Shown one piece after another: positions 4,987 through 57,497 of a DNA stretch of 64,000 nucleotides (positions are counted from its first letter, which is position 1; each line of letters starts with the position of its first letter). Both the position numbers and the translations under genes were made by a program. The notes below the pieces were generated by a model that saw nothing but the letters and a program-made list of their open reading frames with translations, searched no databases and was not told the origin of the DNA. The DNA is from Dactylellina haptotyla. Its lineage: Eukaryota > Ascomycota > Orbiliomycetes > Orbiliales > Orbiliaceae. The stretch lies in assembly GCA_031310005.1 (NCBI GenBank), contig CM062386.1, positions 2,914,001-2,978,000 on the forward strand, written 5' to 3'.

Positions 4987-5427
4987 GAAAGATTCTCAAA
5001 TGACAACATGTAACAATCGCGCGACCCATCCGCCGATATATAAATGTTCGTTGTATGCAACTTGGTTCGTTCGATTAATGCGTGGTGCGGCTGAGTGTGG
5101 CGATTTAACCATCCCGGTTCGCGTTGCCAAGTCGTTTGCAACTTGGAGCAGCGCAGCCCGTACGAGCCTGTTAGCTATTCTTCAAGGCCAGGATGGATTT
5201 GCAGACGCTTGAATGCCTATATATACAAGCCGATGTGATTTACTCAATAAACTTTGTATAGAAACAATCTAGACATATATCTAATCGGCTACATTTAGGC
5301 AACGGAGCTTGCCCTGTGGGCGGGTATATTTTGATATAGTTGTGTTTTGTGGGCGAGTCTCTCACAAACAAGCATCAGAAACCGGAAATTTAGATCTAAC
5401 TATTAGATATCCAAAGCTCTTGAACAT
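4987..5427. other. Intergenic between two minus-strand genes
   Basis: It contains the promoter side of the membrane-protein gene and the 3' end of the P450 gene. Apart from AT-rich runs (a TATATA element near 5036) nothing is recognisable. Confidence 0.5.
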
Positions 5428-7328
5428 TCAAGCACCTAGAGGCGAATGCCTAGTACCCGCCAAAATCTTAAGTTCGCCTGCTTTTGGACTGATCGTCAAG
5501 TATTCCACGATTTCCATACTATCATCGGTACAAGAGTCTGCTAGCACTGCATTGGGACATGATAGCAGTAAGCTGGCGATGAGAAGGCGAATTTGCATCA
5601 TTGCTAGTCCTTGACCAAGACAGACTAGATTTTATACAAATTATATCATTAGAACGCAAATCTTTACACAAATTATACCAAATAAGCCCGAGAAGGTGAG
5701 GGACGATATACCTCTTGAAGCGCCGCCGAACGCTAAAATAGCGGATTCCATATCTTTGGTTGGGTTTGCCCATCTTTCTGGTTTAAAGCTGTTTGGGATT
5801 AGCCGTTATTGATTATTCTAAGTTAGACGTCTAAACCACTCGCTAACTTACGAATATGGATCAGGAAATATATGTGGATCTCTTTGAACCGTATAAATAG
5901 GCGAAACCAGCACTGTCCCTTCAGCAAAGAAGTGCGGTCCTAGCTGCCTCCCACCCTTCGGCACACTTCTTGGTATCAATGTTTGAGCTGCCGCATAGAG
6001 CCTGAGACCCTCTTTTAGGATAAAACTAAGATACGGTAGCTTTTGGAGGGTTTCATCCATAATCCCCTGCTTAGAAACATTAAACTCGATGAGTTCCTGT
6101 TCCAGCTTCGTACGTATATCTTCATTCCTAAAAATTTCCCAAATGATAAACGTCGCCGTTGAAGGGGTAGTATGACTCCCTGTAAGGTTGTTAATAAAGG
6201 CCTCCGACTTTACTTCTTCCATTGTTAAACTATGTTTGACACTAGGATTATCCATAAGGCCTAATATTTTGGAAAACAGCGTTGGTCGCGGCTCTCCTCC
6301 TTTGCACCCTTGGACCTCATGCTTGAGGTTAGTAAGTACTTCTGTGCTGTATTCTGATAACCTTTTTTTGCATCCGAAAAACCATTGTATTGTGGGATGG
6401 GGAATCTTTGATAAAATAAGATCTATTAGATTGATTATCGGGAACTGTCCGCGCATTGCCATCGTGATGAAAAAGGATGTTGTGTCTTTGAGGAAGGGGT
6501 CCAGCTATTTTTAAAATTATTAATTTTCACTTATATTCTCCCCTTTCGAGGCTAATTTAGAAAGAAGGAAGGAAGGACGGGACTCCATACTTTCTCATTT
6601 TCAAGCATCTTGAAATCCAAGCCGTAGCTGATTTCTCCAATGATATCTGCGGCTAGGAGTTGCGCCCACATTTTGAGGTCAGGGGTTCTAGCGCCTTCCA
6701 TTTCACGCTTCACCTTTTCGATGGACCTGTCGATGTGCTTACGAACGACAGGCTCCAGCAGGCGCACATTGGAGTTGGAGAATGCATTTCCGTAGGCTTT
6801 ACGCCGACGCTTGTAGAGATCGTGGTCGGTAATAAAGGCGATTCCGAGATCTTCACCAGAGCTAATAATGCTATACCACTCAGATTTGAGATATAGATCT
6901 TGTGTGCTGTGTATCTTTCTCAAAGAATCAACATCGGCAACAGAGATCTCATACGGTGAAATCCGAACGTAAGGTCCTAAAAATCGTTAATCATTCTTAG
7001 CCGAGCCATCGCAGATAAACAGCTGCGGCCTCTACATAGAATCGCCAATGGGATAATAAAAAATAAGTAGCGTAGCTTCAAACATACCATATCGCTCGTG
7101 TAAAGCGTGGACATCAAAGATCAGTCTTCCTTTCAAGGCTCTAGACCCAACCCAAAGCCGTGAAACTGCGGCGTACCAAGGTCCCGGTATTTTCGATAGA
7201 GGAGAAAAATAAATCTGATAAACCGCGTTGGTGAAGAGATAGAATATGACAGCTACAGTGATGGTGATGATTGCATGTTGGAAACTGAGTTCCGATATCA
7301 ATTGAGGGCTGATTAAATGTAGCTTCAT
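5428..7328 (-). CDS. Cytochrome P450 monooxygenase
   Basis: Five exons on minus: 7088-7328, 6591-6976, 5852-6504, 5712-5788, 5428-5624. All junctions keep frame and have GT-AG ends (for example GTATGT at the first, GTAAGT at the third). The product is about 517 residues. An N-terminal membrane anchor (residues about 18-40) is followed by the Pro-rich hinge KIPGPW. The I-helix motif is TGSHTT (317-322). ExxR is EGLR (374-377), the PERW motif is FKPERW, and the heme loop is FGGASRVCLG with Cys454 as thiolate ligand. It is a microsomal heme-thiolate oxygenase needing a CPR partner. The gene faces a terpene synthase across a shared 1.4 kb upstream region, so oxidation of a terpene product is the likely role (inference). 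Two motif positions deviate: His replaces the usual acidic residue in the I-helix, and Ala replaces the usual second Gly in the heme loop. Confidence 0.93.
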
Positions 7329-8756
7329 CGTGGAAATCGCTCCAAAAAATTAAGTAGGTGACTCTACGAGTCAACCAAAATACTCGTATCTTTTAAATAT
7401 CAGCCATGGATAATATATTGCAAAGTTTAGAATTTCAGAGATAAATACCAAATTGGAAGGAAGAAACCCCCACATCGTGTTGACGATCAGGCATGTTTCT
7501 CGGTCGGAAAAAGCTTTAAAATGAGCTGGCACGGACCTGCTAAAATGAAAGCGGCAGGTTCCCAACATCAAGCTACCTAGTAGAATCCTGAAAATTCACT
7601 TAATTCTCCGGCACTGTTTACATTCTTGACGGGTAAAATAGGCAGACCTACATTCCGAGCCGTCCCGTCAGGCGCTTGCCAGGGTTTAGCCATACTATAA
7701 ACAGGAAACAGAGATCGATCTATATCGATTCCGAGATCTAAGGATCTTGAGTCATCAGTGGGACGACCAGATTGTCCCTGTGTCAAGCATTCAACTTCCT
7801 GCTTCGCAAATATATGCGTCGGGTGAGTACGGGTCGAAATCCCTTACTCTCAGTCACATCGACGGATAGCCAAAGCAGGCTTAACGTGGATATCTCTGTG
7901 ATTTTAAGTGTATATCTGCATTATACGGCCTAAGATCTCGGACCCATGTCCTGTCCCGAACTATACGAGTTCGGTGATATCAAAACCTGAAGATCATGCA
8001 TATCATTTGTTACACCACTGAGAATTTTTTCTGGCAAGAAATTGGACGAGAGAAAGACAAAACTACGAATGGCCGCCCAATTGCTGCCATTTGAACATGT
8101 TTTATTCCAGCTAACAGAGCCGATATCATCGGAATATCCCAATCGGCGGTTCGCTGCAGCATGGGCAGCGTCGGGAAATTTACCCCAATTTGGTTAGTCG
8201 GTTGGGGGATTTCTGTCAGATTGGGTAACGTTGCTCCAACAATGCATTTTATTTCCTGCCTAAGGAATTCCGACAGAATGAATAGATAACAGAGCTCAGA
8301 AAATATCCTAGTGCTTTAAGTTTAGCTCCGATCTTTAAAAGCCTAGGCTTCTGCACGTCGGGAATATATATCCGGTAGCAGGCAGGTGAATTTGCCATCT
8401 GACGTCTGCCACGCATTTGATCTTCGATTCAAGATCTTACGAGGCAAAGCTTAAATTACAGCGTGTTGAATACAACCCTATTTGAGCGCGTAATGCATAT
8501 GCTTTTTTTATCCTTTATAAGTCTATCTCGGGGGTCTTTGTTTATCTGGTTTAGGACAAGATTCTCCATGACTCGACAGTATAGGGCGGTTGAGCCCGGA
8601 CAAGATATATATCGTTGAATTCTGCCATCCGAAGAGACCCTTTCCGCTAGTGACTTTCAATAGATTAATCTCAAGATATCGCAGACTTGAAATTTCTTTA
8701 TTTTATTTTTTACGATTTTAATTTTTAGTCTTGTGAGATATTAATACCAACGCAAT
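7329..8756. promoter_or_regulatory. Divergent upstream region of P450 and terpene synthase
   Basis: 1428 bp between the two start codons, which point away from each other. No convincing coding frame lies inside. It must carry the control elements of both genes, and its position suggests co-regulation. I could not identify a specific transcription-factor site; short AGATCT and CGG-type words occur but are not convincing. Confidence 0.55.
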
Positions 8757-10118
8757 ATGCCTCTCAATTTGGGTTCCCACGACTATGTCCAGACCTTGAA
8801 GGGTCAGACTCTAGTCTTCCCCAACTTAGACGAACTCTTCAAGAACTGGCCTACAGGAATAAGTCCATATTATAAAGGTCTGCGGAGGCGATACGGTAAC
8901 GAATTAGCAAAGTATGTTCCTAATCATCATGTCGCGGTAGTCGGGCTAAAACTAACAGAGGGGTATGAACAGAATTTATGGCAAAGGATCTAAGCATTAT
9001 GAAGTATTGATGGCAGTTGATGTCAGTTTACTTGCATCAATATGGGCTCCGTATGCCAGCGTCGATCGTCTGCCAGCGTTCCAAGGCCAGGCATCATTTG
9101 TATGTCCCAGTTTGATTTACGATAGGATCCACGGTATCGCTAAAGAGTGTAAAAGCTTTATGTTTTCGACGATGAACTAGATACCCCGGTTCACTCGGAT
9201 CTTCTATATGACTTAGATGCCGGTAACCGATTTCGAGCAGAAACGATCACCTATATGAAGGGTATCCTTGGAGACAATCCAAAGGGCAGCGCGTGGACTG
9301 CCGAAGCCAAATCGCGGAAGTCGTCTCTTCCTGCGAATTTAGAATTGGCGATCCAGAGTTTCGGTGCTGTCGCAAAACCCATTGTACCTTTTCTCACAAA
9401 GCGCCAGCGAGAATTATACCTAGAGGCAAATATTTCTTACGTCAACGGAACTGGAGAAGAACAAAAAGTGGAATTGAGTGGTTGCGCTCCAAATATCGGA
9501 GAGTATATGGCGATAAGAGCTGCCACAGGTGGTGTCAAATCTATGATCGCCGTTCTCGAGTATGTCATTTTACTGCACCCTGGATAACATAACTATATTC
9601 AAAACTGTGTACTAATGCCATTCATCAGATATGCGCTAGAAATTGACCTCGAAGACGAGATTGGATACGACCCGGATGTCGACACGCTGTACGAAGAAGC
9701 TAACATTATTATCTTTCTTTGCAATGACTTGTTTTCTCTGAGGAGAGAACTCGCATATCCGTTCTATTGCAACTCGGTTGCTGTCCTATACCATGAACAT
9801 AAAGACCTTCAGGTGCGTACAACCCAAGAGATCGCAGCATGCAACACTTGCACATGTTCTAATAAACAGAAAATCGTCTTATTGTAGATCGCGGTCGATG
9901 AAACTTTCAAAATGATCAGTGATAGTAAATCGATGTTTGATGCCACCACGAACAGGTTGCTCGAGCGATATGACTCGCATCCCAAACTTGACGCGCTCGA
10001 GGCCTTGGTCAATGGCTTAAAACTGATGTCTACAGGAAATATTGCCTGGTCGAAGCAAGCCAAAAGATACAGTCTGGGTGTCGAAAAGTTCGACGGTACA
10101 ACATTCATCACCATCTGA
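8757..10118 (+). CDS. Terpene synthase, class I (sesquiterpene-cyclase-like)
   Basis: Five exons: 8757-8911, 8973-9099, 9156-9559, 9629-9812, 9888-10118. Introns are 56-75 bp and all junctions keep frame; the first intron is the least certain because several AGs are possible, and 8972 was chosen because it alone gives the open continuation KIYGKGSKHYEVLMAVD. The product is 366 residues, normal for fungal sesquiterpene cyclases. The Asp-rich metal motif is DDELD (99-103) after LYVF. The NSE metal motif is NDLFSLRRE (261-269). A C-terminal Arg-Tyr pair (350-351) follows WSKQAK. These bind the Mg2+-diphosphate of farnesyl or a similar prenyl diphosphate. The enzyme is presumably cytosolic. The early part (FPNLDELFKNWPTGISP) resembles presilphiperfolanol-synthase-type proteins, but the product cannot be predicted. 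Confidence 0.92.
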
Positions 10119-30467: not shown

Positions 30468-32400
30468 ATGTCGGGTGCGTCGAGTCCCGGCGGTCTCGAT
30501 GGGTCGAATGGCCTCAAGCGCGTGAGTACAGGGAATAAACGGGAGGACCTGCCGAAGAACCTGAGTATGGTATCGATTATGGGATTGTAAGCTACTATCT
30601 AGATTCAATATCGCCGTTCGAATATATATACAAAATACTAATGTGGTTTAATTGATAGATCTTTTGCTATTATGGGTATGCTAGCTTTCTACTAAACGAC
30701 ATATATAGTCTATAGATATTTAATACTAATGAATGGCTTGGAGAACAGCGGTACCCTTCGGCCTGTCTACTACATTAGCGCTCAGTTTGACAAACGGCCA
30801 GAGTGTTACTGTATTATGGGGGTGGGTGTTGGTATCGTTGATATCGATGGGTATCGCAGCTAGTCTGGCTGAGATATGCGCGGTGTATCCGACTGCCGGT
30901 GGTGTCTATTACGTAAGTTCACGTGTTTATATTCAAATATACGAAGAGGTATTAATGAGTGTAGTGGGCGGCCATGTTGTCGACGCCAAAATACAGAGCG
31001 ATTGCGAGTTGGATCACCGGATGGCTAACATTAGTCGGCAACTGGACGTAAGTCTTTATTTCTGATTAGCGCTATAATGGTATTTATAACTAACAGCGTC
31101 AAGTGTCACGCTATCCATTTGCTTCTCGACCGGCCAGCTGTTCCTCTCCGCCATCACAATCTTCAGAGAAGACTTCGTCCCGAACACCTGGCAGACGGTA
31201 CTCATGTTCTGGGCCGTCATGGCGGTATGCACCAGCGTCAACGCGTTCTTCAGCAAGCACCTCAACCTGCTCAACACGATCTGTATGATCTGGACCGCCG
31301 CATCGGTACTCATCCTGCTCATCGTGCTGCTCGTCACCGCCCGCCACAGGAATACAGCGGAATACGTATTCGCGCACTACGACGCCAGTTTATCCGGGTA
31401 TCCGTCCGGTTGGTCGTTCTTCGTGGGATTGTTACAGGCTGCGTATACGTTGACGGGATACGGAATGGTCGCGTCGCTGTGCGAGGAGGTGCAGAATCCG
31501 CATAAAGAGGTGCCTAAGGCGATGGTTTTGAGCGTGTTGATGGCCGGGTTGACGGGTGTGATGTATCTTATCCCGTTGTTGTTCGTGCTGCCGGAGGTTA
31601 AGATTATTTTGAGCGTGGCGAACGGACAGCCGATTGGGTTGATCTTTACTTTGGTGACGGGGAGTAAAGCCGGTGGGATGGGATTGTTGGCTCTCAGTAG
31701 GTTTTCTTTCGCAGATATTAATGTGAGATGGATTCTAATGGGGGTATAGTTCTCGTCATTGCTCTGTTCGCTGGAACGGGAGCTCTCACTGCCGCGAGTC
31801 GATGTACGTTCGCTTTCGCAAGAGACGGTGCCATTCCGGGGTCTAGATTGTAGGTCTACTAAATCTTCATTTTATTGGTTGATACCTCAGCTAACTTATA
31901 ACAGATGGTCACAATACAACTATCGTTTGAATGTCCCTCTCTACGGTCTCCTGCTATCATCAGCGATCTGCTGTCTCCTGGGCCTCATCTACTTTGGCTC
32001 TAACGCCGCCTTCCAATCATTCGTCGGCGTGGCTACAATCTGTCTGTCTACTTCATACGGCTTCCCCATCCTCGTCAACATCCTCAACAAGCGTAAAGCG
32101 GTGCAGAAGTCTACTTTCTCGCTCGGCAAGTTCGGCTACGCGATCAATATAGCCACGGTTACTTGGATCATTTTGTCTGTTGTGTTGTTCTGCATGCCTG
32201 TTAGTATTCCTGTTACCGCAGTGGGGATGAATTACGCAAGTGTGGTGTTTATGGGCTTTGCATTTATCAGCGTGGTATGGTATGTTATCAGAGGGCGCAA
32301 GACATTCAACGGGCCCGAGGAAGTCTTTATCGAGGGCGTGGATCGGTTTACAGCGGATGACGAGGAGCACGCTCAAGCTGAGAAGAAGCAGCAAAAGTAG
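30468..32400 (+). CDS. Amino-acid/choline/GABA permease, APC superfamily
   Basis: Seven exons: 30468-30586, 30659-30675 (17 bp), 30749-30912, 30965-31047, 31104-31696, 31750-31849, 31905-32400. All junctions are GT-AG and in frame. The product is 523 residues. The start lies in a hydrophilic N-terminus. Family blocks are LPKNLSMVSIMGLSFAIM, GQSVTVLWGWVLVSLISMGI, SLAEICAVYPTAGGVYYWAA, ASWITGWLTLVGNW, GYGMVASLCEEVQNPHKEVP and TAASRCTFAFARDGAIPGS. These are the signatures of the fungal GABA/choline/amino-acid permease group (Uga4/Hnm1-like) with twelve helices. It imports an amine or amino acid by H+ symport; the substrate is not predictable. The C-terminus is acidic and lysine-rich. Confidence 0.92.
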
Positions 32401-34679
32401 AAAGCCACGAGACTCAACTCGCGAGCTAGTTATGATAATTTGCATATTTTGATTTGTATTGTATTTTTATATAATGGTATATCAGGGAGGAATGAAGCAG
32501 CTATTATCACATTTCGAGCTATAACGCCTATAATATATTTAATTTATAGTATTGCAATCGGAATTCGGTTCCAGATGACCTGGGCCCGAGGTGGGTCTCG
32601 AAGCGGGTCCCGAAGCTGCGTTGCGTGTGGTATTGTTATTATAGCGGATTATTTGTGTTGTCCGACAACGCGTCTATCTGCACCCTTTTCAACGCTTGGC
32701 TGATATCAATTCACTATAATTGCAATCGAGGCGATATCATGACGATGATGTGATCAATTGGACATTAATGCCGCGGATCGCCCTGGTCGACAGAACGGGG
32801 ATTGTACTTGTAACTCTCAGCAGCCTGGGCGAATATTAATCTCGCTTTTGTAGACGGCAAAGGGCAAGAGGTTTCTCACCTGGGGACGTGGGAAGCCGGA
32901 GCCTGGACCCCGGTTGTGGGCTCGTTGGTTGGTCGTGTGCAGCTCGCACCTCGCCTCCTTCAAACCCAGACAGTTTCAATCTATCTGCCCGGTCGCGGCA
33001 ACAATTTACAATTTTTCTTTATTGTCTACTCCGTAATGAGCAAGAGAACAGACAAGGCAAGCAAAAGGGAAAAAGGAGACGAGCTTCCAAATATTCGGCT
33101 CGCAATCAAATTCCCTTTTTTGCTCTTGTTTTTTCTTCGTGGGCCACGGGTTCCTGAAGCAAACCCCGTTTTAAAGATATTAAACTGGAAGCTTCCGCGG
33201 GCAGGCATGCGCAGGCCAGGTATCTGTAGCTAAGGTAGGCGGAACGAAAAGGAACCCCCTTTTCATTGAGCGGCGAGAGCGCGCAACCAGGGCGTCATCG
33301 TTTCCCTTTTTTATTTCTTGCTTTCGATCTGAAAGGCGATCTCGGATTCGAACAGGATGATGGACCGACGTGACTGAAGCAGGGGCACGACGGTCGCTGT
33401 GGTTCGCATTGACTATCTCCAAATTTGGCCCGCAACTAAACATTCGAAGGGTGCAACGATATGCACTACATGCACTACAAACATTGCATGCATTGCAGAT
33501 AAAAAGAGATGCAGTGAATGATATCTTTAGAAGACGAGTAAATGGCCGTTGAACGCCATCAGGCGCCCGCCGTCGACGCGAGCGAGAGCCACAGATCCTC
33601 ACGCTGACATTTTTCTACGAACGCTTGCTTTGTTTCATGAGCAATCGCTCGCTGACGGTGCTCCTGCTGCTTCCTTCCCGGATTCCGGTCAACGTATGGT
33701 TGGCGTTTAATCTTGCCGTTGGATTTGAGGGTTATTCAGACGGACCCCTGGGCGAGACATTGTGAGGGAATCTCAACAGCCGAGTGGTCCGACAGGCCCA
33801 AATAGCCAGGAAACGACAAATAATTAGCCAGGAACCGAGAGAGAGGGGAAAACCAGGTGTTTATGTTTCCTTCGGATGATGAAGGTGCGAAAGGGCGGGG
33901 CTCTGGTGAGAGGGCCTTAGAACTTGGCGGTTTCGAAGTGATGAGATATCACGACTAGCACCGAAAAGGGCGGCTGTCATCCCACCGCCATCAGCCTACG
34001 GGACAGCGCCCTACGCAACCAACGGTGGGTCCTGACTGTGGCGATCAGGAGCATGCAATCTAACTTAATTTTCTCGACCCTGGAACCATGTTCTCTCGTG
34101 TCCCTTCGAGATCTGGGCAACCAGCGGAGGACCAGAGCTGTGCAGAAAGGGAGTGCATAGTTAGAAGGCGCTATAATGCGAGTGCTATAATAACGCTCGA
34201 CGACCGTCTTTTGAGAAAGCTCTTTCTTCCTCTCTTCTCTCTCTAGCCTGCGGCTGTTGCTTGACGTTACCCAGTTCTTCTCTTTCCGTTCTTTACGAAC
34301 GCCACACTCCTTCACTTTCATTCTTTACGTTTTGGTTGTTGGATACAACACACGTTCTCTTTCGCAGAACCATTCGCTCTTTACGTGCAGTCCGCACCAG
34401 AATTAAAAGTCCCAAAGATACAGAGCCCAGTTGCTTCTTGTATCACCACCGGAACGAATTTGATATTTGTTTCGAAGATATCTGTTTGATCAGATATACT
34501 CAGGAATTCCACTAGCTGGATATTTCGCCATCTGTTGTTTTTTTCGCTCTTCAGCATCTTTGAGAGATTAGACTGGGTCGTCTATAGTTTGCAGCGCAGC
34601 TACATTTTTTTTATATTCTACCAACAAGCGGTATTTATTAAAAGAATCTTTTTGAATTTTTATTATTTATATTTTCAAA
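32401..34679. other. 2.3 kb upstream region of the AA9 gene
   Basis: No gene is supported. Open stretches at 32888-33602 and 33977-34321 lack protein character. A pyrimidine-rich run near 34224-34256 (TCTTTCTTCCTCTCTTCTCT) resembles the CT-rich tracts found before fungal transcription starts, which would give the AA9 gene a leader of about 400 bases. The segment 34590-34679 is strongly AT-rich. Confidence 0.5.
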
Positions 34680-36374
34680 ATGAAGGCTACTTTGATTACT
34701 CTTCTCTCTGCCGCCTCGTCGGTTATGGGACACGGGTTCGTCCAAGAATTCTTGATCGGCGGACAGCGATATGCTGGTTCCCTTCCGTTCTACGACCAAT
34801 ACCAGAAGCCGGCGCCGGACCGTATCACCCAGCCCTTCTGGGAGAACGGCAACTCCTTCGTCGACGATGTCACCAGCGTTGATATCACCTGTAACAAGGG
34901 CTCTAAGCCGGCCAAGCTCGTCGCGAAGGCCCCCGCTGGCAGCGAGGTCAAGTTCTTCTGGACCGCGTGGCCGGACTCCCACAAGGGCCCTGTTATCACC
35001 TACCTTGCCGACTGCGGCGGGGACTGCACCACGGCCATCGGCTCGCAGCTGAACTGGTTCAAGATTGATGAAGCCGGTCTCCTCGCCGATGGCACCTGGG
35101 CCGCCGATGCGCTCCTCAAGAACAATAACACCTGGTCCCTCACCCTCCCCAGCAAGATCAAGAACGGCCAGTATCTCATGCGCCACGAGATCATTGCCCT
35201 CCACGCTGCCCACGAGCTCAAGGGAGCCCAGTTCTATCCGTCTTGCACAAACATCGAGATCACTGGTGCCACCGGCGAGAACTCCCCGGAGACCGTCAAG
35301 ATCCCCGGAGCGTACTCTGCCTCCGACCCCGGTATCTTTATCAACATCTACTACCCCAAGGTCACCAACTACACCATCCCCGGACCTGCTCTCTACAAGG
35401 AGGACGGTACCAGCCCCGCCGGTCCCACCAGCGCTCCACCTCCACCAACCCTCTTCACCACCGCCCCAACTCTCTTCCAGCCCACCACTGCCACTTATGA
35501 GACTTTCGTCCCAACTGATACCCAGGGCGTCTTCCCTAGCGGAAACGCCCCATCCGGTACCGCTGGCATTGATGCTACCGCTACTTCTCAGGCTGCCCCG
35601 GTCCCAGATGCCACTGAGTCTCCAATCCTCTACCCTACTGAGACCGAGGAGGAGCCAGAGCCAGAAGAGACCGAGATCATCACCACAACCATCTACACGA
35701 CTATTGCCGGCCAGTCTGTCACCTTGACTGCCGTGTACACCACCACCCCACCACCCGGCTGCGACGCAGAAGAGCCAGAAGAACCAGAAACCACCTACGT
35801 CCCAGCACCAACCGTCGAGCCAGTCGGTGCCGTCTGCTCCGAAATGGAGACCGTCACAGTCACCGGCGTCCCTGAAACCGTCACCGTCACCGACTCTGTC
35901 ACCATCACTGTTACTGCCACCCCAGTTCCAGAACCCACCCAAGAGCCACCGGTGACATCCATCGAAGCCGTCCCAACTCAAGCTCCCACCACCACCAGCG
36001 CCCCCGTCGCCATCCCACCAACATACACCTCAAACATCCTCGACCCAATCTCCACCGACCTCCCACCAGGCTTCTCAGTCATTCCATTCCCCACTGAGAC
36101 TCCCGCAACCGTCAAGGACGTCCCCACCGCCACCTCCGCGCAGCCGTACGAGCCATCAGGCACGGGTGCTCCGCTGACCGGTTACGAATCAGCCCTCACC
36201 CGCCGCGACTGCGACGATGCGTTCATGAAGTGCCAACGTAGCTACGAGGGGTGCATGAAGCGCGCCAAGAGAAGCGGTATGCAGACTCGCAGCTGCGAGA
36301 AGTTCAAGCGTGACGTCTGCGTTGAGGGATTGAGGGGGTGTGATGCTAAGATTTGGGGATACGCTGCTGTCTAA
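34680..36374 (+). CDS. AA9 lytic polysaccharide monooxygenase with long Cys-ended tail
   Basis: Single exon, 564 residues. Signal peptide 1-17 leaves His18 as the mature N-terminus, required for the copper histidine brace. The second brace His is His101 (SHKGPVITYLADC). His169 lies in QYLMRHEIIALH, and the axial Tyr is Tyr186 in AQFYPSC. The catalytic domain ends near residue 240. AA9 enzymes oxidatively cleave cellulose or hemicellulose outside the cell. A 270-residue Pro/Thr/Ser/Glu-rich tail follows (with Val-Thr repeats such as ETVTVTGVPETVTVT). There is no CBM1. The tail ends in a basic module with six Cys (511, 518, 525, 539, 547, 554; spacing C-x6-C-x6-C-x13-C-x7-C-x6-C). This terminal module is unusual. 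Codon use is strongly C-ending, unlike neighbours, suggesting high expression. Confidence 0.95.
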   Translation: MKATLITLLSAASSVMGHGFVQEFLIGGQRYAGSLPFYDQYQKPAPDRITQPFWENGNSFVDDVTSVDITCNKGSKPAKLVAKAPAGSEVKFFWTAWPDSHKGPVITYLADCGGDCTTAIGSQLNWFKIDEAGLLADGTWAADALLKNNNTWSLTLPSKIKNGQYLMRHEIIALHAAHELKGAQFYPSCTNIEITGATGENSPETVKIPGAYSASDPGIFINIYYPKVTNYTIPGPALYKEDGTSPAGPTSAPPPPTLFTTAPTLFQPTTATYETFVPTDTQGVFPSGNAPSGTAGIDATATSQAAPVPDATESPILYPTETEEEPEPEETEIITTTIYTTIAGQSVTLTAVYTTTPPPGCDAEEPEEPETTYVPAPTVEPVGAVCSEMETVTVTGVPETVTVTDSVTITVTATPVPEPTQEPPVTSIEAVPTQAPTTTSAPVAIPPTYTSNILDPISTDLPPGFSVIPFPTETPATVKDVPTATSAQPYEPSGTGAPLTGYESALTRRDCDDAFMKCQRSYEGCMKRAKRSGMQTRSCEKFKRDVCVEGLRGCDAKIWGYAAV

Positions 36375-37825
36375 GTACTAAGGTAGCTTATGCTTAAAAA
36401 AGTTTCTATCGGCGAGTGTAAGATATTATGTTATTATCCTTCGAGGATGACGTGACGGATCTTTCGCAGCGAGTGAAGGTTCTTGATTTTTTTTGGTTTC
36501 TGGATTTTCTTTTGTATTGCAGCTAGCTTGCTTCCTGTTGATGAACGGGTGGGGGCTATTTCGGTTCTTTTGTAGATATTTGGTAGAATCTAAAGATACA
36601 TTTTGTATAAATTTTTATCCGTCGTAAATCTGTGAAGTCTATAAGATATGCTTGTGTAGTGACCGATTGGCAAGTCTGGTTACGAGACTGCCTCGAAGTG
36701 TCGAATTGGACTGCCAAAAGATAGTGTGTTGCATTTTGGCTTGCACATCCCAAATAGGATAAGGCAACACAGAAAATGTTACAAGACAGTACCGAAATGG
36801 AAAACCGGTCGTGTGTTGAGCCTTCTCTTCAGCCTATAAAATTAGACATCGCCATCGTTCTTTCCCTCACCACGTACGCATTCCTTCTACATATTCCACC
36901 ATTTGTCACTCACACTCATTTTATTCATCATCATCATCATCACAATCATCATCATAATATCACGCTGAAAGCTCACTAGAAGACCGCTCTTCAAACCTGA
37001 AGAAATCTCTAAAAGCGATAGTTCACACCCTTCGAGCTCCTCTGCATGCAACCTCCACCAATATCAACTTGAGCAACTTTACAGCTGATGCTAGCTCACT
37101 CTCAATCTATTGATATATTCTTATCGCCGGACGTGTCCTACTGATACACCCTGGCAACTGATTCGATTCATCGGTTAATATAACCACGGTCACAACGGTC
37201 TCGTTGTAAGACTGATCTCCTCACACGGCTTTCCTCGGCTGATACGTCATATTGAAGAGACTATTGAGATATTCTCGTTGACAGATACTACAGGGGTAGT
37301 CTACATAATAGACAGGTCGGATATATTTGCCGGTTCTCCTTTATGTCGGGCTATAGCTTTCTGCAACGGATAGTCTATTCCTGTCGTTGCCGGGCGCCGA
37401 CTCTGCACTTCATATAACCATCAAAAACTATAACTTGGCTCCTACCACTACTTGCCTCACCGATATAATCTGGTGTTTCGCTGCTCATCTCAACCAATAT
37501 AGCCTGGTGTTCGAGTCACCCAATTCTCGTTACGAGGCTGTGACCAGAGTATTTTGAAAATTCAAGCGTCGGAGCTATCAATCTCGACTCATCAAATAAA
37601 GACTTACTGAACCGGCAAACGTCTGTCATATTTGAGAGGTTACTCTTACTTTCGAGAAGCTTCCGCCTTATTTGATGCCGCAAAAGACATTTTTGAAGGG
37701 TTTAAAACGAAAGTTCTACTAGCTGATTGTGTCAGGCTAAGCAGGGCAAGAGGTGAATAACCTATAATTTGGCAGAGCATATAAGAAGGTATACTTGACA
37801 GATTGCATATATCCGCAACGACAAC
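36375..37825. other. Intergenic, no gene recognised
   Basis: 1.45 kb. It contains an imperfect CAT/CATAAT microsatellite at about 36926-36960. Otherwise it is stop-rich in all frames. The AA9 terminator lies at the left end and the promoter of the next gene at the right. Confidence 0.5.
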
Positions 37826-40800
37826 ATGGCGCCAGGTGGATTTCTATATTCTCCTATCGCGCCAGACTTTGCAGGAACCAAGCAAAAAGCTGAGAACACT
37901 GTTGCCAACGAGGACTCTGCAATATTTCCTGATGAGCTGAGTAGAGAGTCTGGGAGCCAGAGGTATAAACACGAAGATGCAGTTGCTCCAAGCACGATCA
38001 CGACGTTTGGGAAACCTACGAGTCGCTCTACTCTTAACTCTGCTACTTCACAACAGCCCTCTGTGGACAACGGAACTCAATACTGTTTGCCCGAAAATGC
38101 TAGAATCCGAGGTCAACATTCTGATGAAATATCACAAGATATTGATGTCAGCACTGACAACCGACGATTTCAGCAAGCATCTAGAAAATCTTCTTCGCTA
38201 ATGACGACTGATGCAACGGATGAACCGAATTCTATCGATGAAGGCCATAGGTTGCCTGACTCTGCTGTTTCCTATGCAGCTTCTACACGCCCGAGCGAAT
38301 GGGGTCTGTTTCACTTTAGGCGGGAGGCAACACCCCTCAAGGAACCTACTGGAATCTTCACTCCGCGAAAGGTTATTCATCCCGGAGAGGCGAATCATAT
38401 TCTTCCCACCCTTGCAAAAGAAGAGAATCACCCAAGCGCTGGCGAACAGGATGGTTCTGACAACGACGATGGCGACGGCGGAGCTGAACTTCTACTTGAC
38501 GAGAATACTCATCCGCAGGGGTATACGCCTGACCTGACGGATGAACACGGAAGAAGAAAAATTTGTTTTCAGCAGCCTTCTGGTTCCCATTCATCTAGTC
38601 TCCGTTCTGAGAATGACAGGAGTACTACATACCGAAGAGCGAGCTCGAATATCCTCAACTTTTCAAACACAGTACTTGGACGTCACGAGAGCGTACTCGC
38701 AGCCCAGCAGAAATCTCCGGGGTCCGCTCACTCTGATAACATTCCCGAGAATACAAACCAAATCTCTAGTCCGCGAGATTCGACGTCTAAGTTTTTTCAA
38801 AGGTCGGCTTCTTCGATAATTCACAACAATACCGATTCGAATAACGCTTGTCATGCACTTTTTGCTCCCGTGAGCCCATATGATTCGCTTCCATATCACC
38901 CTGGCACAATGTGGTCCCGCAGCTTACAAGATTCCGACGCCGATGAATCCACGTTTGCAGACGCCTGGGCTAAGGAGTCTTTATTATATGACAGCTTCTT
39001 ATCTGATTCGCAGGAACCTGCTTCTATTGATATTGTGTCTCCTCAATCGATCGATCCCGTTCGCTTGGCTCATACGGTACCCCCGCGAATGACCACGAAA
39101 AGCTACAGGCATTTAAAGATCATCGAGGATGAGGATTTGAAATCTAGGTCGTGGGTCAAGAGTACACCGAAGGTTAAAAAGTGGTCTTCGAGAGATAGGG
39201 GGTTGCAGGAGAACTACTCAACCTTGAAAAGATCTGATGACGGCGAACGTTTAACACCACTTCGGGAGGGCTTTTTAAATCACTTTAACAGTCTTGAACT
39301 TGGGCATCTGAAGAAGTTTACAGCAACAGAAGAGAGGAAGGCACTCGAGCTCCTCTGTGGCGTTGGTAATATTAAACTTGGGGAGATATCGTCGGCTCAG
39401 GAGCTACGCCGCGCACTAGACCAGAAATCATCAATGAACTCTGATGATTTCATGGATGTGTTGAATGAGATTGAAGAGCGGCATATCGAACTCCAGAGAG
39501 AAAAGAGTTATTATATTCGTGAACTCGAACAGGAAGAGGAGGATGGCTCGGATTATGACACCTACATGGCGAAGCTGGTACCTCCGATCCCCTGCACGCC
39601 GGGTTAGAAGCCCGTCGAACGAGGCTGGAGGTCTGCTGATGGGGGATTAATCTGTGTCAAGGAAGGCGATGTACCGAGCTTTGTCTACCTAGGCCCTCGG
39701 TGGGAAGACCAGATAGACGAATACTTGACCATGGGTCCACGGGCGCCGGTGTACTGGTGGACCGGTGTTAAAAGTACCGACGATGAACATATAAACCTCG
39801 ATTTATCATATAAACTTCTCGGATTGGAAACAAAATGGGAGGAGAGCGCCAGTGGCCAGTACCTCGCAGAGTTGGTTTCCCCAAAATCAATTTGTTCTGC
39901 TAAATACTGATATATATACTGATAGCATAAACGACAGCGAAACTTCATCTGAAGCCTCCGAAGAGGAAGTATCATGGGCCAGCAGTCTCCTAAATCCACG
40001 GCTGATGCTGACGTGCAATTCCGTCCACGGAAGCAACGTCGACCTAACGTTCGATCCGGAAGAACTCGACGTCCCAACACTAGACTTCGAACGCAACTTT
40101 GAAAAAATGAACTGCAAATTACAGCACCAATACCCCAACAACGCCACCATCCACAAATTCAACCAACTCGGCCAAATCACAATCTCAAAACCGCCCCCTC
40201 GGGATAAAAAGAAGTTACCGAAAAGCTGTCTGAAAAAACTGCAGCCGAAAGAAAGTTCGAAGAATAACAAGGATGATAAATCCACCCGCTCGAAAAGGAA
40301 TAGAGACCGCAAACGTGTCGCGTTCAATTTGAGTGAAGACGACGCTGGGTACGCGGATACATTCCACCCGAGGGGCGTGCGGTGGTGTACTCGCGTTCTC
40401 AAGGTATTCAAAAGGGACGATCAGGTTAAGCGCGGGTGGCATGATGTACTCCCCTCTGTTCGTGCGGGGTTCACGAGGATTAAAGGGTTTGAAAGGTATA
40501 TCTTCCCCTCTTATATCCGTCGTATTCTATATATAATTTACCTAACAATTACGAAATAGATACTACCCACGATTCCTACAGCCTCCAAAGGGCACACACA
40601 GGACGCAGACGAAATCCAAGGAAACAGCATACTTTATGAACCATATCGCCCGGTTCAAACTCGGCTTCCCCCCTTCTAACAACAACAGCGCTGAGGATAC
40701 GTATACGACACCATCAATTCGAGTCATTTTAGAAAAAATCCTCAAAAGAAGAGAGAGGGCGAAGATTAGAAGCGGGGAAGACCAGGGGAAGGATATATAC

Positions 40801-41016
40801 CGATACGACATCTTTACCCGCGTGGTGAGCGGGAGGATGAAACGGGTGGGGATGGTTGATCTTGGTATTGATGATGGTAGTGATGACGCTGCGGGAGCGG
40901 GTTCGCATAGAGCGCCGATGAATGGGAAAGAGCCGGGTGAGTATTTGGTTTATGCGGGGGCACGCGTGCATAGCTTGATGGAGATGGGGGAGGGTGAGAG
41001 GGGAGTTGATGTTTAG
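37826..41016 (+). CDS. Large unknown protein with PP1-docking-like motifs
   Basis: Four exons: 37826-39577, 39662-39858, 39926-40495, 40560-41016. Introns are 84, 67 and 64 bp; the first two donors are GTACCT, the third is GTATAT with a CCTAACAA branch point. All keep frame, giving 991 residues. An alternative is that the first frame ends alone at 39607, but exon 2 has clear protein character (VYLGPRWEDQIDEYL) and needs a donor. Residues 1-460 are Ser/Asp/Asn-rich and probably disordered. Around 500-580 a helical acidic segment occurs. Residues 740-783 are very basic and contain SCLKK and then KRVAF (779-783), which fits the RVxF protein-phosphatase-1 docking pattern. No enzyme domain, signal peptide or membrane helix is seen. 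A nuclear or cytosolic regulatory role is inference. Confidence 0.7.
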
Positions 41017-41393: not shown

Positions 41394-43743
41394 TTAATAC
41401 GCCCGATCGACACTTTCTAGGGCGATTGATATTCTCTGCCATATCTTCTCTCTGCTTTTTTCTCTCGCTCTGATATTTGAATTTCCGAGTAGCTTGGACG
41501 GAACGACGCAATCATAACTATCATCCCTTCCTCCCTTCGCCATAATCGCAAAAATTGCAGCCATACCATCGACTGTTTTCAATAACTTGATATCTTCCGG
41601 GTCTGCCTGTACATCACTTTGTTTCGCGAAATCGATCACCAACGCCGCCACAGCTGCGCCAACAAATGTCGCGTACGAAGTTCCACTTTTCGTCTTATCT
41701 TTCAGGTGCGAGTACACAGGGACATCCTGACCTAGTAGCGCGAAGTTGTTGTCCCTCCTCTTCGGTTCAGGATTGAACTCATTTTTAGCCTTGCCCATAC
41801 CGCTACACGCGAACATACACATGAGGGCGCTTTCAAGATACATCCTGGCAGGGAACGTAATGCCTTTGATGGACCCGTAGTTTGAGGCGGCGGCAAATAT
41901 GATGATATGCTTAGCGGCGGCGGCGCGCACTGCGTCGCGAATACCCTCATGAGGTGAATGTAAGCCACTCGCGATAGTTATGATATCGACATTCCAAGTA
42001 TTGATAGCATGGTATATGGCTTTAGAGATGAGGCCCGGGGTATCTGATACTGCTTCCTTGCCCTTGAAGACTCTTGCGATGTATAGGTCTGCATCTGGAG
42101 CTATTTCAGTTACGAGATCGACACCTGTGGACCCGTGACGAGTTTCGTCAACCATGACATTGTCCTCAGTGATGAAGTCTTTGTATTCTCGATTAGTGCG
42201 AGCTGGGGGTGAGATGGATGGATACCGCTGTCGATAATTGCGATTCTGACGCGGTCTTCATCGCTAGTATCACCCTGAAGCACGCATTGTAGTCTTTGGG
42301 TGTCTTGTAACCACCCCGCAGCAGGGTTTGAAGTTGATCTGATTTTTGGAAATTCGTTAATGTTGATGTCAAGTTATTTTGGGTACTTATCATTGTAGAG
42401 TATACTTACATTGCCTGCGTAGCTCCATACCAAACTGGCTCGTCTAGTTTCCCATTTCGTTCGAGGGTTTTTCTACGCTCTTGCTCTGATGTCCGTTTTA
42501 AATATCTCCTTTTGTTCCATTCCATGGCTTTTTCAATCTCTTCTTTGCAAACTTCTTCGTCGAACGACAGAGGCACCTGAATAAACTGAGGTGGGTGGGA
42601 AACGGTTTTCGACTGTAGCAGTTCCCAAAGTTCTGGATTCTCGTTCCTTCCCACCAAATCAATAGCCGTATAATGCGCCGCATTCGCCAGATTCGAAATC
42701 GCTCCTCGGTCTAAAATCAATTTTATGACATCAATCCCAGCCCGATACTTCACAGTACCTGAGTATTCTGGCTGCACTGCGATACCAAGTGGCGTATACA
42801 AGCGTGAGAGCATTATATGTAACAATGTATTGCCATGGTTATCCACGGCGTTGACATCTGCCCCATTGTCAATCAAAATCATCATAATATCCGCGGGCGG
42901 TGATCCGATTTTCGGGTCTCTCTCTTCCAGCGTATAGTGTAACGGCGTTCGCCCGTCTTTTGCCCTTCCGTTTGGGTTGGCCTTCGCTTCCAAAAGCATT
43001 CGCACCACATCAGCCTTGCCAGAGCTCGCGGCTATGTGTAACGATCCTATTTCATTTTTGCTACCGTGCCACGGAGCGTCGACGTTGGAGATATAACGGA
43101 GGATAAGGTCGATGATGCCACGAATACTGCGCTTTCTTTTCTGATAATTAAGCTCCCAGGAGTATTTGTCTTCCTGCGAAGCGGCTTGCACCGCCAAATG
43201 CAGCGTTGACCTTCCATCAGCAGTCTTGTCGTCAGCAGAGCATTTTGCTTTTTCCAGTAAGTATTTTATAATTTCTAGCGTAGAAGTACTAATCGCACAG
43301 TGGAGTGCATTCAGTCCACTTTCGTCGTAAACCGACAAATTCGCGCCGTGCTCAACAAAAAGTTTGATGATCGGCAATTCGTTAAACCATATCGCGTAAT
43401 GAGTCAGACTTGTCTTGCGCGCTAGAGAGTTGACATTTGCGCCCTTGTCGAGAAGGAATTCGGCAATCTTGGGCTTGTTGCATAAAATTGTGCGATATAG
43501 CGGTGCGTGTCCCCAAATGTCTTGCCGGTTTATTTCAGCCCCATTATTAAGGAGAAGTTTAACCATGCTAATATCGACCTGGTCGACTGCAAGGTTGAGA
43601 GGAAGTTCATTTCCAGGAGTATTAGGAGAAACACCGCTTTCGAGAAGCCTCAGGACTTCGCTCTCGTCGCCGATTCTGATTGCAGGGCTGAGTTCATTGG
43701 GCGGGGGCCTTGTGTCCTGTACTTTGGACAATCCCAAAAACAT
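41394..43743 (-). pseudogene. Ankyrin-repeat/subtilisin (S8) fusion gene, frameshifted
   Basis: Exon 1 42410-43743 (about nine ankyrin units, starting MFLGLSKVQDTRPPPNELSP) is joined by a 71 bp intron (GTAAGT ... TTAACG ... ATCAG) to exon 2 41394-42338. Exon 2 opens with a linker, then VRIAIIDSGIHPSHPQ containing the catalytic Asp (Asp481). A one-base shift within about 42190-42215 then changes frame. The next frame reads NREYKDFITEDN and carries the His (DETRHGSTGVD), APDADLYIARVF, the oxyanion Asn (AAASNYGS) and the Ser (SGTSYATF), ending at 41394. All triad residues are thus present, but no GT-AG intron repairs the frame. Either the gene is a fresh pseudogene or the base is an assembly error. 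No signal peptide is present, so an intracellular protease of the ankyrin/NLR type is inferred. Confidence 0.8.
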
Positions 43744-54476: not shown

Positions 54477-56120
54477 TCAGACTATCCCTTTCATTGGCAT
54501 ATTCTTTTCCAATGCCATCCGCCTCAGCATCTCGTAGAATTTAGGGTCTTTTATCTGGAAAGCCGATTTTCCCGTAGAGTCTCTTATATCTTCATCTACT
54601 CCCTTCGATTTTAGATATTCGTATCTTGTCTCTGACCGTTGGTCTTCGTTCAGGACCACCATGTGAAGGTACGTGCGCCCATTGTCATCGATCTCCGACC
54701 ACTTCACACCCGCTTCGTCAAATATGTCGAGAACCGACTTGTCGAGTTCAATTTGATTCGGACTGTGTCGTTCACTATACCCGGATCTCGGGTCGACAGG
54801 CACTTCCTCCAAGAAGAGACTCAAAGGAGTGCGACCTTCTGTGTTCCGGGCATTAATATCCAGTCCGTGGCGGAGAAAGATTTGAAACAGGCGCCGTTTA
54901 TTGGCACTAGCCTCACTGTCGACCAATCCATCGTCAGCTAGGTAGTGTAGAGCTGTGTTCCCTCGGCCGTCAGCAAAATTCGGTTGAGCACCAGCAGCGA
55001 GAAGGTCATCGATCGTTGTCTCATCTCGTAAATAATGGCCATGGTAGTAATTACACCGCAACCTTTGTAGGGCTGCATGCAATGGATAAGTGCCAAAATT
55101 ATCAGGCTTGTTAATCAATTCTATGCTCTCACTTAGAGATAAGACGTGTCGCAGAGTATTCCTGATTACAGGTGGGCGGAAGTGCCGAGGCTCCGTGTTA
55201 CTCTGATCTAGAAGCTGGTGGAGAACATTCCTGCCTAGATCATCTGTTGCCAATAGATTTGCTCCTCGATTAAGTAAATATTGGAATGCCGTTATCTGAA
55301 CATTGGCGAAAGGATTATGTAAATAAACTTGGCCCTCTTCTTCCGCATCCCTGTGGTTGCTGTTAATAGCCGCATCAGCACCTAGTAGACTACGACATGC
55401 GGAAAGGAGAAGAGTGCGGCCACGGGGATCTCGATGCTCCAGATCGAGTTCCAGATTATCAGTAAGTAATGGGAGGGCATAGTGAGAGTCTTCGAGAATT
55501 GAATGAACCACGCATCGAAGTCCATATTTTTCTTCGAACATGTTGCTGTCAGATCCCCAGTGATCAAAGCCATACGCCTCAGGCTGTGAAACGGGAATCC
55601 GATGACCTGGAAAAACTCCGCGACGATGGGTATGCATCAGCGGCTGCCGATAAACAGCATATAAATCTGCTCCTCGGCTGACGAGTTCGGTCATTATTGC
55701 CCCAATTTTAAGCTTTTCTTCCTGAGCCTTTGGGTGTGTAGGTATTCCTGCGGCAATACTGAGAGGGTATTTCTCACGGTAGGTCCTACCATAGCGAAAA
55801 CGAGGGGACATATTCGGGTCGCTGTGCCAGTATTCCGACACTTCATCAGATATAGCTACGGCGGGTTCAAATAGGCGAACGTTTGGGCTAACCCCAGAAT
55901 TGAGTTGCTCTTTCACGGCCTCGGCGTTTCGATCGCATATTGCCGAAACTAGCGTTCTTGCATTTTGGTTGGCGTGTTGTAAGTTATGGTAATCGTCTCC
56001 GTTATCCCCATCATCTTCGTCTTCCCCATCATCTTCGTCTTCGGATGACGAATGGTAGTGTATTCCGGATAGATCAGGAGGTGTCGGATTGCTATTGACT
56101 TCGTTCTTTGAACAAGGCAT
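54477..56120 (-). CDS. Ankyrin-repeat protein with acidic N-terminal region
   Basis: Single exon, 547 residues from ATG 56120 (MPCSKNEVNSNPTPPDLSG). The frame is open upstream to 56282, but that part is AT-rich, starts MVLSIHISLL and ends just before a CTAG sequence resembling a 3' splice site, so it is more likely leader or intron. A highly acidic stretch (DEDDGEDEDDGDNGDD) precedes the ankyrin region. Degenerate ankyrin units follow from about residue 55 (SAICDRNAEAVKEQLNSGVS) to 540, separated by long inserts, with clearer ones at GRGNTALHYLADDG, NTEGRTPLSLFLEE and NGRTYLHMVVLNED. No other domain or signal peptide is seen. A protein-binding role is assumed. It resembles orphan ankyrin proteins frequent in fungal recognition repertoires. 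Confidence 0.82.
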   Translation of the reverse strand: MPCSKNEVNSNPTPPDLSGIHYHSSSEDEDDGEDEDDGDNGDDYHNLQHANQNARTLVSAICDRNAEAVKEQLNSGVSPNVRLFEPAVAISDEVSEYWHSDPNMSPRFRYGRTYREKYPLSIAAGIPTHPKAQEEKLKIGAIMTELVSRGADLYAVYRQPLMHTHRRGVFPGHRIPVSQPEAYGFDHWGSDSNMFEEKYGLRCVVHSILEDSHYALPLLTDNLELDLEHRDPRGRTLLLSACRSLLGADAAINSNHRDAEEEGQVYLHNPFANVQITAFQYLLNRGANLLATDDLGRNVLHQLLDQSNTEPRHFRPPVIRNTLRHVLSLSESIELINKPDNFGTYPLHAALQRLRCNYYHGHYLRDETTIDDLLAAGAQPNFADGRGNTALHYLADDGLVDSEASANKRRLFQIFLRHGLDINARNTEGRTPLSLFLEEVPVDPRSGYSERHSPNQIELDKSVLDIFDEAGVKWSEIDDNGRTYLHMVVLNEDQRSETRYEYLKSKGVDEDIRDSTGKSAFQIKDPKFYEMLRRMALEKNMPMKGIV

Positions 56121-57497
56121 CGGGATATCTAGTACTAGAATGGAAAAATTAAAAATATTTTTTGTAAAATAGGAGCAAGAAGTCCCCTGTAGTCGGTGTT
56201 TCTTTTTAAGATACGCAAGCAGTTGATCCTCATAGTTCTTGTTGGCGGTGATGAGAAGCGAAATGTGTATAGATAGTACCAATTCTCTTCTCTTTTGACA
56301 TACAAAGGCACTAGTTCAATGGAATCAAGTTGGGCGCTTAAGCTTCTTTCCTGTCTGAACTGGCCGCGTTAGACACCATCGCGGCACAACAGAAGTTCTT
56401 CGTCCCTGCCGAACAGAGTCGATTGACTGATTTAGCTTTGCCACGGTGGTCCTAAAATTGTGCTATTTTGTATCTTTTACTTCATTTCATTCTTTATGAA
56501 ATTTGAGCGATTAGGTATACGAGAAGGTACATACGAATATTATAAGTGGGCCGCAGATGCTTGACTTGCTACTAATACCTGACAGCAAAGTAGTGCAATC
56601 TGCTATGGTGTCTTTCTAGAACCTAGGAAGGAGAGCCTCTCGCTAGCAAGGCATATTTGCGTTTTTGCCCAAGAGTTCCTCTCGTATTGTTTTTGCTTAT
56701 TCATGTAAGGTACTATTTGCTGGTTCGTAAAGCTTAGTCGCGCAAGGACAAGCTTCCGGCTTCCAAGACTCTACCTTCCTTGCTTCCAGGGTTCCGATCG
56801 ATGCAATCTCGGATCGCGGTCCGCCCTATTACAGTCAATGAACTTTTATAAGATGCCATATATTCTGTAAATCTTATCCGAAAGGAAGGTACGACCATCT
56901 CGTGAAATCAATGCGAACTGCGCTTGCAGCACAGCACTTGAGCCTCGCCAGGGATTCGTGACAAAGTCAACAACACCTTCCCGAGTTGTATTCCCAGCCC
57001 TGCATCCTCCCCTCGTTCCTCTTCTGGAACGACCGAGGTAGCGTCTTGCTGTCCAGGAACCCAAGAATATTGCATCCATCTATGAGCTTTTAGAATGCCA
57101 GTTTCATAATACCTGGTATCCACGATCGGAGTTTAATTGCTATATGTTAAAGTTTTCTGAATTCAGGAATTACGAGATTTTGCTTACAGGGAACACCATG
57201 CGAACGAAGGCGCAGGCTGGCGTATTCTTCCGTTGATACCATGAAGATAGTTATTTGACGATACGAGATTCTCATATTCTGAGTCGAAGGCATTATGAGC
57301 AATCTTTGACTATATCTTAATTTCTGGATGTCATAACCAGGGGACTAAATTCATATATATAGAAGACCAAAATATCCCACAGCTTGATCTCAGAAACTCC
57401 GATTCTCGTGTTCGCAGGAGTCCTAAGCATTACGCTCATTTACAATATTCTCTGATTTTTAACTACTTCGTTCATTTCAAAAAAGATTTCATAAAAT
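56121..57497. other. Divergent upstream region of ankyrin and LysM genes
   Basis: 1.4 kb between a minus-strand and a plus-strand start. The open stretches at 56846-57123 on minus look random. A TATATATAG box at 57354-57362 lies about 140 bp before the LysM start and is a candidate TATA element. Confidence 0.45.

Follow-up and report, generated by a model that had tools for sequence, protein, structure and literature searches.

The window, a stretch of 64,000 nt of Dactylellina haptotyla DNA, carries on its minus strand a two-exon gene that joins an ankyrin (ANK) part to an S8 (subtilase) protease part. Exon 1 (43743-42410) starts with an ATG at 43743 and stays open for 445 codons of ankyrin repeats and linker, ending in ...WYGATQA; Pfam assigned Ank_2 to 43743-42407 (-) with E = 2.5e-48. 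Exon 2 (42338-41394) encodes the S8 part. Between them lies a 71-nt junction intron of ordinary type (42409-42339, GTAAGT...CAG), which was read in the sequence, is absent from the first-pass annotation, and whose predicted removal links the frame of exon 1 to the frame of the catalytic Asp motif. The first 49 codons of exon 2 (42338-42191) form the start of the S8 domain with the Asp codon at 42232, and the remainder (42191-41394) continues in another frame through the His motif (codon at 42137) and the Asn and Ser motifs to the stop codon. Peptidase_S8 (PF00082) was matched over 42257-41397 (-) at 31.6 bits against a cut-off of 21.8, which places the part after the break in family S8, and the S8 part also matched subtilisin BPN' in sequence (E = 2.8e-6). 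Scanned alone, the 87-codon frame that contains the Asp motif matched no Pfam family. The first-pass annotation had described ankyrin units joined to an S8 domain with recognisable Asp (IIDSGIH), His (TRHGST), Asn (SNYGS) and Ser (SGTSYATF) motifs; the Pfam matches bear out the joining, and all four motifs are present. In exon 1, only ankyrin families exceeded the Pfam cut-offs and neither NACHT nor NB-ARC was matched, so the gene does not have the make-up of a fungal NLR (STAND).

The ankyrin-S8 gene is convergent with a large gene whose frames occupy 37799-41016 (+) and gave no Pfam match over the cut-off. Elsewhere in the window, two more large ankyrin-repeat frames lie at 1-2055 (+), which runs off the window start, and at 54480-56315 (-). 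An AA9 polysaccharide monooxygenase with a long Thr/Pro-rich tail is encoded at 34656-36371 (+) (E = 3e-72), and antisense to it runs an open frame of 463 codons at 34641-36029 (-). At 31090-32397 (+), two stretches of a single frame matched an amino acid permease and are separated by a stop, perhaps intronic.

The S8 part found three other loci in the genome, L025, L026 and L027, at 70%, 52% and 44% identity; a plasmid collection searched with the same part gave no match. Directly upstream of each S8 match in the genome is an ankyrin reading frame, and after intron removal the three gene models are unbroken, with 760, 875 and 661 residues. Their junction introns measure 82, 67 and 63 nt, and the ANK/S8 junction thus carries an intron at 4 of 4 loci, a count that covers this genome, the relatives from other fungi being protein records. 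L026 and L027 each contain one extra intron, and the single stop codons within their S8 matches sit at the ends of those introns. The junction motif GATQA is common to the window gene, L025 and the relatives P0139, P0140 and P0145. When frames of at least 50 codons around the four loci were compared all against all at E 1e-4, nothing was shared beyond the family itself, antisense shadows and other ankyrin frames. Near the L027 gene, four tandem frames (L033:2566-3684, 4563-5570, 6640-7500 and 8098-9024, all on the minus strand) are about 28-34% identical to one another.

Relatives in other fungi were sought with the S8 part of the 760-residue paralogue among 5.8 billion proteins, and 57 were obtained within the allowed length range. 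Nine have ankyrins (eight with S8 called, plus P0145, whose S8 is cut short), 37 combine DUF7580 with S8, and 11 are of other make-up. None is near-identical, the best reaching 73% identity to the S8 query. The best 7 of the 57 each have ankyrins and come from three members of the Orbiliales, Arthrobotrys entomopaga, Orbilia ellipsospora and Dactylellina cionopaga; another ankyrin-S8 protein, P0152, comes from an Aspergillus. P0145 (Orbilia ellipsospora TWF694_004534) ends inside S8 before the Ser motif and is a shortened or misannotated ankyrin-S8 member. With its ankyrin exon, junction intron and S8 exon, and with homologues of the same part order, the window gene belongs to an Orbiliales ankyrin-S8 family. 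The first-pass annotation had proposed a search for intact homologues, and had held that homologues without ankyrins would make the fusion an accident; because three further ankyrin-S8 genes carry their junction intron in the same place and other Orbiliales have full-length relatives, the fusion is not accidental. The S8 part alone, searched against a large protein set, gave 18 relatives, restricted by length to short proteins. The ankyrin part matched unrelated ankyrin proteins, and the 120 of 592 matches listed included no close relative.

The two halves of the protein differ in their rates of change. After the break, the S8 part has 70% identity with L025 and 82% with P0139 of A. entomopaga, to which the window S8 is sister in the tree with support of 98/97. 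In 7 of 7 pairs compared, the N-terminal ankyrin part is 36-50% identical while the S8 part is 70-83% identical. A fast ankyrin sensor attached to a conserved S8 effector fits a recognition role, as judged from these comparisons, and relaxed constraint on the ankyrins would give a like pattern. The predicted model of P0140 (mean pLDDT 82.7, pTM 0.52) shows ankyrin-type helix pairs, a linker of low confidence and a C-terminal part of alpha/beta type; among the 50 of 1439 and 50 of 1194 matches listed from the PDB and viral libraries, most were ankyrin proteins, including designed ones, and gave no information about the S8 half. The first-pass annotation had proposed an intracellular ankyrin-gated protease. 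The fusion is genuine and no signal peptide is evident by eye, whereas gating of the protease by the ankyrins is unsure, as is the domain orientation in the model (pTM 0.52).

A one-base frame change between the Asp and His motifs had been reported on first reading, and the alignments place a single break at about 42191. The DNA of the window gene and that of unbroken L025 are 73% identical over 1068 aligned bases, including the junction intron, and the alignment shows one uncompensated base at 42188-42195; the remaining gaps of the S8 exon balance one another or are multiples of three. Before the break, exon 2 is 84% identical to L025 over its 49 codons. The Asp, His and Ser triad and the oxyanion Asn are consequently split over two frames in the window gene, whereas in L025 and in the relatives P0139 and P0141 the four motifs share one frame. 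As the sequence stands, the product has about 520 residues (444 + 1 + 75), the last 27 out of frame (42190-42110) and followed by a stop. Because this product is without the catalytic His, Asn and Ser, it cannot be an active protease.

The coding sequence beyond the break is well preserved. Its frame is open for 265 codons while the remaining two frames hold 8 and 16 stops, and none of 20,000 composition-matched random first-order sequences produced a frame of this length. Of the 50 columns that do not vary among ten relatives, 49 are retained in the window gene and 48 in unbroken L025; for the 98 columns conserved at 80% or more, the figures are 92 and 90. In a leave-one-out control, each relative kept 50 out of the 50 to 58 columns that were constant among the other nine. 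Between the window gene and L025, pN/pS was 0.17 for S8 before the break, 0.23 after it and 0.67 for ankyrins plus linker, ratios that are rough because synonymous differences are many (pS 0.51-0.77). The retention of invariant residues and of an open frame means that the break is either recent or an assembly error. In the S8 tree the branch of the window gene measures 0.15 against 0.086 for its sister P0139, a difference that could reflect some mild relaxation before the break.

The first-pass annotation had suggested that the frameshift may reflect either loss under balancing selection or an assembly error. If the break were an error of assembly or consensus, the gene would be truly unbroken and encode a working ankyrin-S8 protein. 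Conservation after the break that equals that of the unbroken paralogue (49 against 48 of the 50 invariant residues) would be expected of such a gene, as would an S8 exon with no second uncompensated gap. Against this, a scan of the break site found no homopolymer of four bases or longer, and the closest one, CCCCC at 42209-42205, is about 10-14 bases off. The ankyrin matches in this assembly also include many long unbroken frames, for example of 2024, 1657, 1644 and 1589 codons, which points to a low rate of indel errors. We therefore regard an error as unlikely, though by no means far-fetched, and the sequence comparisons suggest that the gene was lost very recently in this strain.

Splicing could in principle also mend the frame, through a new mini-intron or an intronised stretch yielding a shortened in-frame protein. 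The first-pass annotation had held that no GT-AG intron fits, and had placed a 24-nt GT...AG stretch at the break. That stretch measures 23 nt (42225-42203), and two more GT-AG stretches, of 38 and 47 nt, share its donor, so the statement that none fits is not strictly true: all three lie between the Asp and His codons and keep the frame open, and the longest contains by eye a CTAAT branch-like element. Their single donor, GTATCC at 42225, differs nevertheless from those of the six introns in the four gene models (GTAAGT, GTAAGC, GTGAGT twice, GTGCGC and GTAGGT), all of which have G at position 5. Removal of any of the three would also delete the Gly two residues after the catalytic Asp, which is invariant in 13 of 13 aligned relatives, and the coding sequence of the relatives runs straight through this region. 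Such a rescue is accordingly very improbable. Programmed -1 ribosomal frameshifting, by which a full protein would be made, has next to no probability: the direction of the hand-over, as deduced from the frames, would suit a -1 shift, but no X XXY YYZ heptamer occurs in frame from the Asp codon to the stop, and unbroken relatives need none. We thus consider both cures of the break unlikely, and retain a very recent loss as the preferred explanation.

We further examined the four loci for gasdermin genes. A gasdermin-like frame was found at C3:1315746-1316345 (L026:5247-5846, plus strand), continuing into L031 (C3:1316414-1316746). The gasdermin-like gene lies head-to-head with the ankyrin-S8 gene of L026, its first ATG about 0.7 kb from the start of the protease gene. 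It matched the solved Neurospora gasdermin-like protein RCD-1-1 (8jyz) with E = 4.7e-22, and with 34% identity in the reverse search. Profile and BLAST searches, which covered 4781 pieces of reading frame around the four loci, detected no gasdermin near the window gene (the window and 10 kb beyond it) or in the 25-26 kb around L025 and L027; thus one of the four family members, L026, has a gasdermin gene within about 10 kb, and the window gene has none. In the tree, L026 groups with P0143 and P0144 (support 100/99) in a sister clade, not in the clade of the window gene. Two queries found no second gasdermin in the 39.8-Mb genome, each having scored one candidate chosen by shared short words, so that others may be missed. 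The animal gasdermin profile PF04598 had no match in the genome, and since a fungal gasdermin is present yet unmatched, this profile is too narrow. Thirty Pfam scans of flanking reading frames, with one frame covered twice, named no gasdermin; Pfam is uninformative on gasdermins here, because the gasdermin frame of L026 itself gave 0 families. PDB searches of two neighbouring frames yielded one chance-level match (E = 0.56) for one frame and none for the other.

The ankyrin-S8 architecture has precedent, systems of this type being already on record from other fungi. Of the gasdermin genes in fungi, about 80% are reported to cluster with protease genes and about 63% with S8 protease genes; the S8 proteases so clustered often bear ANK, TPR or WD40 repeats, and HET-Q2 likely cleaves HET-Q1 (PMC10197012, PMC12881547). 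The window gene resembles these HET-Q2 and HET-Q2-like (Q2L) proteases (Clavé et al. 2022, as reviewed) in combining an S8 domain with superstructure-forming repeats, ANK being among the reported kinds alongside TPR, WD40 and NLR parts (PMC10197012, PMC12881547), a likeness that is drawn from the class description in reviews. The pairing of L026 with an RCD-1-like gasdermin gene is a further resemblance; in contrast, the window gene has no gasdermin found beside it and its frame is broken. Proteases of this class would control gasdermins by a cleavage that frees the pore-forming part, and the ankyrin-S8 proteases may do likewise.

Closer in sequence are the Orbiliales proteins named Ankyrin-3 or Ankyrin-2 (P0139 from A. 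entomopaga; P0141 and P0142 from D. cionopaga) and P0140 from O. ellipsospora. They have the same part order as the window gene, GATQA or a near form at the junction, and S8 identity of up to 82% (P0139). They differ in being deposited full-length, without a break, and in the ankyrin part their identity with the window gene falls to 42% for P0139 and 36% for P0141. DUF7580-S8 proteins of Fusarium, Aspergillus and Penicillium share 41-42% identity with the window S8 part (P0146, P0147, P0149, P0150) but carry DUF7580 (PF24476) where the window gene has ankyrins. The genome has 11 DUF7580 matches, and comparison by eye placed none of them within 25 kb of any S8 match listed. S8 is also among the effector domains of fungal NLRs, some of which carry an N-terminal Peptidase S8 (PMC4986451); these resemble the window gene in pairing an S8 effector with a repeat sensor, whereas exon 1 of the window gene has no NACHT or NB-ARC and its S8 part is C-terminal. 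A survey that counted the S8 genes of A. oligospora noted ankyrin repeats in a few fungal S8 proteins (PMC5371821). Among the papers listed, none deals by title or abstract opening with gasdermins or ankyrin-S8 proteins in Arthrobotrys.

The window gene is one of four ankyrin-S8 genes found in this genome; on balance, we consider it probable that the family encodes sensor-proteases for regulated cell death and that this copy was recently inactivated. In the unbroken members, the ankyrin solenoid would act as the sensor and the C-terminal subtilase as the effector. Sensing may free the protease or bring copies together, and the protease would then cut a partner; at least for L026, this is most likely the product of the head-to-head gasdermin gene. 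Cleavage of the gasdermin would open membrane pores and lead to cell death. The window copy, broken between the catalytic Asp and His, would supply the ankyrins and the Asp part of S8, about 520 residues in all. A role in recognition or cell death had been suggested on first reading; it fits the known gasdermin-linked S8 class, although only one of the four loci has a detectable gasdermin.

The three loci without a detectable gasdermin could instead indicate that these proteases serve general processing or quality control inside the cell and have no part in cell death, the gasdermin at L026 being coincidental; that 37 of the 57 wider-family relatives bear DUF7580 rather than ankyrins points the same way. 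Yet the sole gasdermin detected in 39.8 Mb adjoins, at about 0.7 kb, one of the four ankyrin-S8 genes, and clustering of gasdermin and S8 genes is reported as general (PMC10197012, PMC12881547). The fast-changing ankyrin part likewise fits recognition. We hold the quality-control explanation to be a minority possibility and keep the sensor-protease as the preferred reading. More speculatively, the broken copy may be a naturally occurring null allele, or a decoy, at a locus of the incompatibility type, where strains would carry either a working ankyrin-S8 receptor or an ankyrin-plus-stub form. The stub might still bind ligand and damp the unbroken paralogues, with all of them feeding one gasdermin elsewhere in the genome; we rate this as improbable.

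These results place a small ankyrin-S8 receptor-protease family in D. haptotyla, a fungus whose relatives include nematode trappers, with one member physically paired with a gasdermin gene. With a single gasdermin located in the genome by two queries, the set of sensor, protease and gasdermin is testable, and the broken copy offers a natural loss with which to ask whether such receptors segregate as recognition alleles.
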